From: Clostridia bacterium
GTDB taxonomy: Bacteria; Bacillota_A; Clostridia; Peptostreptococcales; Anaerovoracaceae
Assembly (NCBI GenBank): GCA_024403175.1
Contig: JAKSSI010000092.1
Coordinates: 1-5,847, forward strand
Direction: 5' to 3'
DNA: 5,847 bases
Both the position numbers and the translations under genes were made by a program. The notes under the pieces were generated by a model. It had not been told where the DNA came from and searched no databases. It saw only the letters and a program-made list of their open reading frames with translations. Each line of letters opens with the position of its first letter. Positions within the stretch are counted from its first letter, which is position 1. Shown here in pieces: positions 3,803 through 5,847 of this stretch.

Positions 3803-5065
3803 ATGCCAAATAGATACGATAGCTCAAAAGAACTTATTTGTTCATTCTGCGGAAAGCCTCAGAGCATGGTAAGAAGACTTGTTGCAGGCCCAGGTGTTTA
3901 CATCTGCGACGAATGCATCAATGCTACTTACGAAATTATTTCCGCTGAATTTGCAAGAACTCCTGATGCTACAGCTATAGACGAAAGAAAACCTCTTTTA
4001 AAGCCTCGCGAAATTTCAGATAAGCTTTCTGAATATGTAATAGGCCAGGAAAGAGCAAAGAAGCTTCTTGCTGTTGCTGTTTACAATCATTACAAGAGAC
4101 TCTTCTCTCAGGAAGATATTGATAACGATGTAGAACTTCAGAAGTCCAATATTGTTATGGTCGGCCGTACAGGTTCCGGCATGACTTATCTTGCTCAAAC
4201 ACTTGCAAAGATTTTAGATGTTCCTTTTGCAATTGCGGATGCCACAGCTCTTACAGAGGCAGGCTATGTAGGTGAAGATGTAGAAAACATTCTTCTTAAG
4301 CTTATTCAGGCTGCAGATTACGACATTGAAAAAGCTCAGAAGGGTATTATTTACATAGACGAAATCGATAAGATTTCTCGTAAATCCGACAACCCATCCA
4401 TCACAAGAGACGTTAGCGGTGAAGGCGTTCAGCAGGCACTTCTTAAGATTATTGAAGGTACTGTTGCAAATGTTCCACCACAGGGCGGAAGAAAGCACCC
4501 ACAGCAGGAGTTTATTGAATTCGATACATCCAATGTGCTCTTCATTTGCGGCGGTGCATTTGATGGTATTGATAAGGTAATTCAAAGACGTATGGGTGAA
4601 AAGGTAATCGGTTTTAACAAGACCGTTGTTTCCACCAACGTTAACGACCCACATATTCTCGACCACATCCAGGCAGAAGATCTTCTTCACTACGGACTCA
4701 TTCCAGAATTCATCGGAAGAGTTCCTGTAATTGCCACACTGGATGAACTTAGCATTGAAGCTCTTATTAAGATTATTACAGAGCCAAAGAATGCTCTCCT
4801 TAAGCAGTATAAAAAGCTTATGGAATATGATGATGTGGATCTTGAAATTGAAGATGAAGCTATTACTGTAATTGCAGAAAAGGCAAAGGCAAAGAAGACC
4901 GGAGCTAGAGGCTTAAGATCAATTTTTGAAGATATAATGACAGACGTAATGTACGACATTCCATCTGAGGCCGATGTTGAGAAGGTTGTAATCACAAAGG
5001 ATGCCGTAGAAGGTAAAGCACCTATTACAGTTGTCAGAAAAATAGAAGAAAAGAAAGAAGCATAA
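3803..5065 (+). CDS. clpX: ClpX unfoldase, ATP-binding subunit of ClpXP, with an altered Walker A motif
   Basis: The 420-residue protein is full length and colinear with ClpX, the AAA+ hexamer that recognises, unfolds and translocates substrates into ClpP. The N-terminal zinc-binding domain has C13, C16, C35 and C38. The AAA+ module shows the pore loop GYVG (154-157), Walker B IIYIDE (182-187), RKH loop (230-232), IGF loop that docks on ClpP (269-271), arginine finger R306 in EFIGRVPV, and sensor-2 GAR (367-369). The anomaly is Walker A: residues 121-128 read GRTGSGMT instead of GPTGSGKT. The ATP-phosphate lysine is Met127 (ATG, one base from AAG) and the preceding Pro is Arg122 (CGT, one base from CCT). 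The frame is intact and nothing else looks decayed. From family knowledge, loss of this lysine should abolish or cripple ATP binding. No strong ribosome site precedes the ATG, and the 2-nt gap from clpP suggests translational coupling. Confidence 0.96.
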
Positions 5066-5068
5066 ATT

Positions 5069-5847
5069 ATGAGCGAAGTAATGCCTTTAATCCCACTTAG
5101 GGGACTTACGGTATTTCCGAACATGGTAATTCATTTTGATCTGGGAAGAGAAAAGTCCATCCTTGCACTCGAACGTGCAATGGTTATGAACCAGACCATC
5201 TTTTTGGTGTCCCAGAAAAATGCCGACTTAGACCTTCCAACAACAAATGATATCTATGAATACGGAACTGTTGCAAAGATTAAGCAGATGCTTAGACTTC
5301 CAGGCAACAATATTCGTGTTCTTGTTGATGGTCAGTATAGAGCAAAGATTGGCGGCTACATTCAGGAAGTTCCATACTTCCTTGTTACAGCAGAAGCTGT
5401 TGAAGAAAAGTCCGTTAAGAAGACTCCACATATTGCAGCTCTTATGCGCAACGCGCAAAAGCTTTTCCACGAATGGGTAAGCCTTCATCCAAAGTCATCC
5501 GAAGAAGCATCATCTGCTGTAGATGAAATGCAAGAGCCGGGTAGACTTGCTGATTATATTGCCGCAAATGTTGAATTAAAAGTAGAACTTGCACAGCAGA
5601 TTCTCGAAACAGTAGACCCTGAATTAAGACTCGAAAAGCTTAATGAAATTCTCACAAGAGAAAATGAAATCTTAAAGCTTGAAGATAATATCAAGAGCAA
5701 GGTAAATGCTTCTATGAGCAAGTCTCAGAAGGAATATTATCTTCGTGAACAGATTAGAGTTATTCATCAGGAACTCGGCGAAAGCGAAGACGCTGAAGAA
5801 GAGGCAGCAATTTGGAGAAAGCAACTTAAGGATTTAAATCTTGGTGA
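5069..5847 (+). CDS. lon: ATP-dependent Lon protease, N-terminal part (3'-partial)
   Basis: The ATG at 5069, 3 nt after the clpX stop, opens a frame of 259 codons that runs off the window. The start PLIPLRGLTVFPNM (6-19) and GREKS (26-30) are typical of the Lon substrate-binding domain. That domain continues through YGTVAKIKQMLRLPG (65-79) and RVLVDGQYRA (83-92), and the domain ends near residue 200. The following helical segment has KEYYLREQIRVIHQELGE (221-238), the conserved linker before the AAA+ domain. The AAA+ and Ser-Lys protease domains lie beyond the window, so activity cannot be judged here. Full-length bacterial Lon is about 770-800 residues. Lon degrades misfolded and selected regulatory proteins in the cytosol. 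No clear Shine-Dalgarno site and a 3-nt gap suggest coupling to clpX translation. Confidence 0.96.
   Translation, partial: MSEVMPLIPLRGLTVFPNMVIHFDLGREKSILALERAMVMNQTIFLVSQKNADLDLPTTNDIYEYGTVAKIKQMLRLPGNNIRVLVDGQYRAKIGGYIQEVPYFLVTAEAVEEKSVKKTPHIAALMRNAQKLFHEWVSLHPKSSEEASSAVDEMQEPGRLADYIAANVELKVELAQQILETVDPELRLEKLNEILTRENEILKLEDNIKSKVNASMSKSQKEYYLREQIRVIHQELGESEDAEEEAAIWRKQLKDLNLG

Follow-up and report, generated by a model that had tools for sequence, protein, structure and literature searches.

An otherwise ordinary clpX gene whose Walker A loop has methionine in place of the lysine: a probable local consensus error weighed against a real change

The clpX gene described here encodes a Walker A loop without the lysine that defines this motif, which raises the question of whether the motor of a core protease has really changed its catalytic site in nature. 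If the replacement is real and the enzyme functional, nature would be seen to replace the most conserved residue of an AAA+ motor, within a core protease, by relocating a charge. If it is real and the enzyme dead, the gene would capture a wild strain just after the loss of ClpXP, and if it is an error, single metagenome contigs would be seen to mimic catalytic-site changes. The evidence most likely points to an error first and then to a recent loss of ClpXP, with a new kind of enzyme less likely.

The window, by which we mean the whole 5847-base stretch of DNA that was analysed, carries clpX as an ordinary gene of a tig-clpP-clpX-lon cluster on the plus strand (Table 1). The names of its relatives suggest an uncultured member of the Bacillota, similar to Family XIII / Anaerovoracaceae. 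All four genes are open, and a gap of two bases separates the clpP stop from the clpX start codon. The clpX product exceeds both curated ClpX cut-offs (TIGR00382, 631.3 bits against 370.75; NF003745, 646.8 bits against 359) and has the N-terminal C4 zinc-binding domain (PF06689, 64 bits), with CSFC at residues 13-16 and CDEC at 35-38, so that the zinc-binding cysteines 13, 16, 35 and 38 are all kept. In domain order, zinc finger, other motifs and adjoining clpP it is like the AAA+ unfoldase of ClpXP as modelled by TIGR00382 and NF003745, and it shares up to 86% identity with other bacterial ClpX. The Walker A loop of ClpX in general is G(P/S)TGxGKT, in contrast to GRTGSGMT in the window. An identical protein of 420 residues is present in the public protein set (P0001, 100% identity), as a cluster of one member from one 5847-base contig; since this is a single contig of that length, the window is probably the entire contig.

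Table 1. Coordinates of the genes in the cluster and of the ClpX segments discussed in the text.
Feature	Position	Strand	Basis
tig (trigger factor), 440 aa	1831..3153	+	TIGR00115, 436.8 bits (cut-off 180.2)
clpP, 194 aa	3216..3800	+	TIGR00493, 338.6 bits (cut-off 308.6)
clpX, ATP-dependent Clp protease ATP-binding subunit, 420 aa	3803..5065	+	ORF; TIGR00382, NF003745, PF06689, PF07724
Walker A loop GRTGSGMT, residues 121-128	4163..4186	+	sequence, alignment
CGT = Arg122	4166..4168	+	Pro in 295, Ser in 6 of 301 other ClpX
ATG = Met127	4181..4183	+	Lys in 301 of 301 other ClpX
Pore loop GYVG, residues 154-157, present	4262..4273	+	letters; usual ClpX motif name
Walker B IYIDEID, residues 183-189, present	4349..4369	+	letters
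Arginine-finger segment EFIGR, residues 302-306, present	4706..4720	+	letters
Sensor 2 segment GARGLRS, residues 367-373, present	4901..4921	+	letters
lon, N-terminal part (cut by the end of the window)	5069..5847	+	PF02190; TIGR00763 partial match, below the whole-protein cut-off

The loop opens with GGC for Gly121 (4163-4165) and closes with ACT for Thr128 (4184-4186), and the Walker A pattern GxxxxGK[ST] is absent from the window ClpX. A preliminary description of this DNA had placed GRTGSGMT at residues 121-128, with Arg122 from CGT and Met127 from ATG, and its coordinates are exact. It had also put each change one transversion away from a usual codon. The codons of 124 loops taken from the DNA of relatives agree: codon 127 is AAG in 75 and AAA in 49, and codon 122 is one of the four proline codons in 121 and a serine codon in three.

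To assess how rare the loop is, we aligned 302 ClpX sequences: 176 proteins from the database, 125 loci in translation and the window itself. Some genes enter twice, once among the database proteins and once, with different trimming, among the loci, so the 301 comparisons do not equal 301 independent organisms. Left out of the counts were P0121 and P0123 (duplicated or fused), proteins shorter than 400 residues, identical sequences and locus reading frames covering less than 85% of the query; one reading frame was kept per locus, and loci L136-L145 stood outside the counts. Among the 302, the window alone has Met127 and the window alone has Arg122, and the P-loop lysine, described beforehand as near-invariant, is present in all the others. 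In the closest proteins, the segments flanking the loop match those of the window exactly or almost exactly. A search scored on residues 108-150, in which a second GRTGSGMT with similar flanks would be expected near the top ranks, listed 119 other matches, all with Lys and none with this loop. The homology lists stop at the best 120 among roughly 8000 candidates that were scored, and each database entry stands for a cluster at 90% identity, so that rare near-identical variants inside clusters are invisible to such counts.

More specifically, the loops of P0001-P0120 comprise 115 GPTGSGKT, three GSTGSGKT, one GPTGAGKT (P0084) and the window's own. The 97 proteins P0121-P0217 yield 96 occurrences of GPTGSGKT and two of GPTGCGKT, two loops coming from P0121. 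In this last protein, a ClpX of 480 residues, the Walker A segment is duplicated and supplies both GPTGSGKT copies, possibly an assembly artefact. None of the readable clpX loops on viral contigs was changed; nine such loci gave eight readable loops, some of them nearly identical, and all eight have Lys. In E. coli genomes, a 151-base clpX piece around K125 found a match in 5374 of 5426, with 3457 records at 95-99% identity, a range in which synonymous variation masks amino-acid changes.

The gene around the loop is in good health. Walker B, pore loop, IGF loop, arginine finger, sensor 2 and zinc finger are all present as letters, as had been described; box II and the RKH loop are likewise kept, most of the names being those usual for ClpX motifs. 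In columns where 11 close relatives agree (at least nine present), the window differs only at P122R, K127M, L356V and E377D. Relative-rate counts against the same 11 (window/relative) run from 17/17 to 20/11 and 21/12, with a largest chi-square of 2.61. The window has the shortest root-to-tip length of its clade in the midpoint-rooted tree (0.353); its terminal branch of 0.149 is fairly long, in a tree without any closer relative. At columns conserved to at least 99%, the only private change of the window is K127M in clpX (133 columns, 302 sequences), and there is none in tig (16 columns, 71 sequences), clpP (56 columns, 232 sequences, proteins outside 190-202 residues being dropped) or lon (9 columns, 87 sequences). 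Column 122 is 97.7% Pro and therefore falls outside this list. Lowering the threshold to 98% adds one outlier, ClpP N66D, and an independent ClpP has the same residue as the window at this position (P0219, from a 1470-base ENA contig; 99% identical to the window ClpP, with one difference in 194 residues). The source of P0219 is the same species as that of the window or one very close to it.

The preliminary view that there is no general decay is thus borne out: the ClpX cut-offs are passed, no further outlier appears and rate acceleration is not significant. A long-standing pseudogene was rejected on the same absence of significant acceleration and of other outliers. The rest of the gene being normal, and the agreement of close relatives being broken at four residues only, the loop change is, judged from the aligned sequences, private and either very recent or unreal. 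As biology, the loop of the window is a singleton.

The expected effect of the change follows from E. coli ClpX, whose K125 aligns with window residue 127. Lys125 is reported to contact nucleotide, as do Arg307 (arginine finger) and Arg370 (sensor 2), and the K125M mutant is described as severely inhibited in ATP hydrolysis (PMC7112951, eLife 2020), in line with the earlier statement that Lys-to-Met is an inactivating change. This mutant has the same residue and the same substitution as the window; it was made in the laboratory and keeps the usual Pro at the second loop position, where the window has Arg. By homology with it, the window ClpX, with its sequence taken at face value, would be expected to hydrolyse ATP poorly or not at all.

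The preliminary reading named four explanations (a tolerated natural variant, a subunit mixing with a second active ClpX, a recent inactivating mutation and a sequence error) without choosing among them. Its statements on the biochemistry and on the lack of general decay are supported; two of its explanations find no support. A tolerated natural variant finds none among relatives, since none of the 301 shares Met127 or Arg122; they are canonical and the window is the sole outlier, which is half of the outcome that had been named as telling against the change, the other half being a low-quality assembly. The idea of a second active ClpX fares no better. It holds that another clpX in the genome is active and that the window copy mixes in as a passive subunit, and we regard it as very improbable. 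Among 21 genomes grouped around the nearest relative (78% identity), not one shows two ClpX: 19 have one long ClpX match at 63-78% identity, one has only a partial ClpX match and one only an HslU-like match. Six further genomes, reached through loci, each have one ClpX together with HslU-like matches, and wider genome searches gave a match of some kind in 388 of 393 and 246 of 247 genomes. Furthermore, the window clpX adjoins clpP, the expected place of the main copy.

A central point for the remaining explanations is how surprising two close changes are. Among the other columns conserved to at least 97%, 8 of 150 lie within five residues of position 127, so that a random second hit there would be an event of about 5%. 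As a control, 40 of the 302 ClpX (window included) have at least two outliers at columns of this kind, and in 8 of those 40 a pair falls within six residues. Seven of these eight are sequences other than the window. The pair in P0128 is the same as that in P0129. A third-position change and other outliers are common to P0151 and P0176, which looks inherited. The remaining pairs are in L068, a distant deltaproteobacterial row, in P0076, where the changes are conservative, and in P0204 (G29Q, Y33C), where they are as radical as in the window. Close pairs are therefore not unique to the window.

We favour, at slightly better than even, the explanation that P122R and K127M together are a local consensus error in one short contig. 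Such an error could come, for example, from low coverage, with only one or two poor reads behind the consensus at this stretch, and the true ClpX of the organism would then have a canonical Walker A. Lys127 in 301 of 301 other sequences, Arg122 in none, the single-member protein cluster and the lack of relaxed selection all speak for it. That both changes are radical and share one loop, everything else being unaltered, fits a local fault at the level of reads, and a local fault of the consensus readily produces a close pair. Against an error, no other fault was detected in the contig, where a poor contig might show more, some 1.66 kb separate the loop from the contig end, and 97 of the 301 other ClpX rows have at least one private change at columns conserved to at least 97%. 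The known error contexts add little. Illumina errors have been described as biased towards positions after 3-mers ending in GG (PMC4787001), a context that fits neither altered codon on either strand and so also counts against an error. For each altered base, the first G of a GGC stands four bases upstream, a context reported as error-linked yet, alone, as no reliable predictor of error-prone sites (PMC3622629). This link is weak for that reason and because the motif itself puts a Gly codon before both positions; GGC makes up 29 of the 76 Gly codons here.

The main rival of a consensus error is a real mutation, inactivating and of very recent origin, carried by the sampled strain, by which ATP binding and hydrolysis in ClpX would fail; we hold this to be possible, though doubtful. 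ClpXP proteolysis would then be lost or the subunit dominant-negative, with Lon and other unfoldases presumably carrying on. The effect reported for the matching K125M mutant argues for inactivation (PMC7112951), and in Chlamydia a ClpX Walker B mutant is described as having lost ATPase activity while keeping its oligomer, which suggests that a dead subunit can persist (PMC7468207). In the window, lon follows clpX, and relatives have HslU-like matches, the assignment to HslU being drawn from the match pattern. Intact other motifs and the lack of rate acceleration are as expected if the mutation is very recent. Against it, two radical changes would have to have struck the same loop while every other near-invariant site was spared, the coincidence of about 5% derived above, and the change is absent from all compared sequences.

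It is unlikely that the loop works as it stands, with the positive charge moved from loop position 7 to position 2 (Arg122), Met in the space of the lysine and a weaker ATPase. That both changes are real and linked, with the phosphate-binding charge relocated from Lys127 to Arg122 and ATP still hydrolysed, is slightly less likely again. If so, it would be the first naturally relocated Walker A charge known to us in a Clp unfoldase. MinD-type deviant Walker A ATPases (KGGxxGK[ST]) have an extra lysine at loop position 2, a precedent for a charge there, but they also keep the second lysine; the window has Arg at position 2, no GG next and no Lys at position 7. The joint occurrence of Arg122 and Met127 favours a working loop, and Ser122 in 6 of the 301 other ClpX indicates that Pro is not strictly required.

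Precedents are also reported from other families. In Eurotiomycete Kti12 the place of the P-loop lysine is taken by Leu, and the protein has a lower affinity for ATP yet remains catalytic when ATP is high; in phage Mu gp28 the residue is Leu70, reportedly complemented by the nearby Lys64 (PMC7363723). Together they suggest that replacement of this lysine is not always fatal. In principle, an Arg at the second loop position might have a similar effect. Kti12 is, like the window ClpX, a natural swap of the Walker A lysine for a bulky hydrophobic residue; it differs in belonging to another ATPase family, in spanning a whole fungal group and in working at high ATP, whereas the window is one contig. 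A point against the parallel with Mu is that its lysine lies six residues upstream and the window Arg five. In large terminases a P-loop Arg is described as acting in cis, in one example beside an intact Lys (PMC5727402). Against a working loop, neither Arg122 nor Met127 occurs in any compared sequence, and K125M alone is reported to impair E. coli ClpX severely (PMC7112951).

Several further features were observed in and around the locus. Viral contigs (IMG/VR; L137-L144) carry a near-complete ClpX with 45-52% identity to that of the window and with the Walker A Lys present; phage-carried clpX may merit attention. In the window, a Cys-rich reading frame with an open 5' end (1-555) has repeated CxxC motifs and a match to PF00684, the DnaJ central zinc domain. 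A CYTH-domain protein (PF01928; 1063-1686, minus strand) is divergent from tig, and tblastn matches to it were also found in many loci of relatives around clpX.

The intergenic region 669-888 holds an imperfect inverted repeat in three spaced copies (TGTTGCC ... AGTGGCAACA), with starts 83-95 bases apart. The sequence TGTTGCCA occurs five times in the window, where 0.23 occurrences are expected, and TTAGTGGCAACA is found in none of 145 loci. No Rfam match was obtained anywhere in the window at gathering scores. Two hairpins, at 578-623 and 1001-1046, flank the repeat-bearing region and are 80% alike over 46 bases. Each has the form GACCGAGCCA..TGGCTCGGTC followed by T-rich sequence, and the two resemble terminators or, alternatively, the termini of an inserted element.
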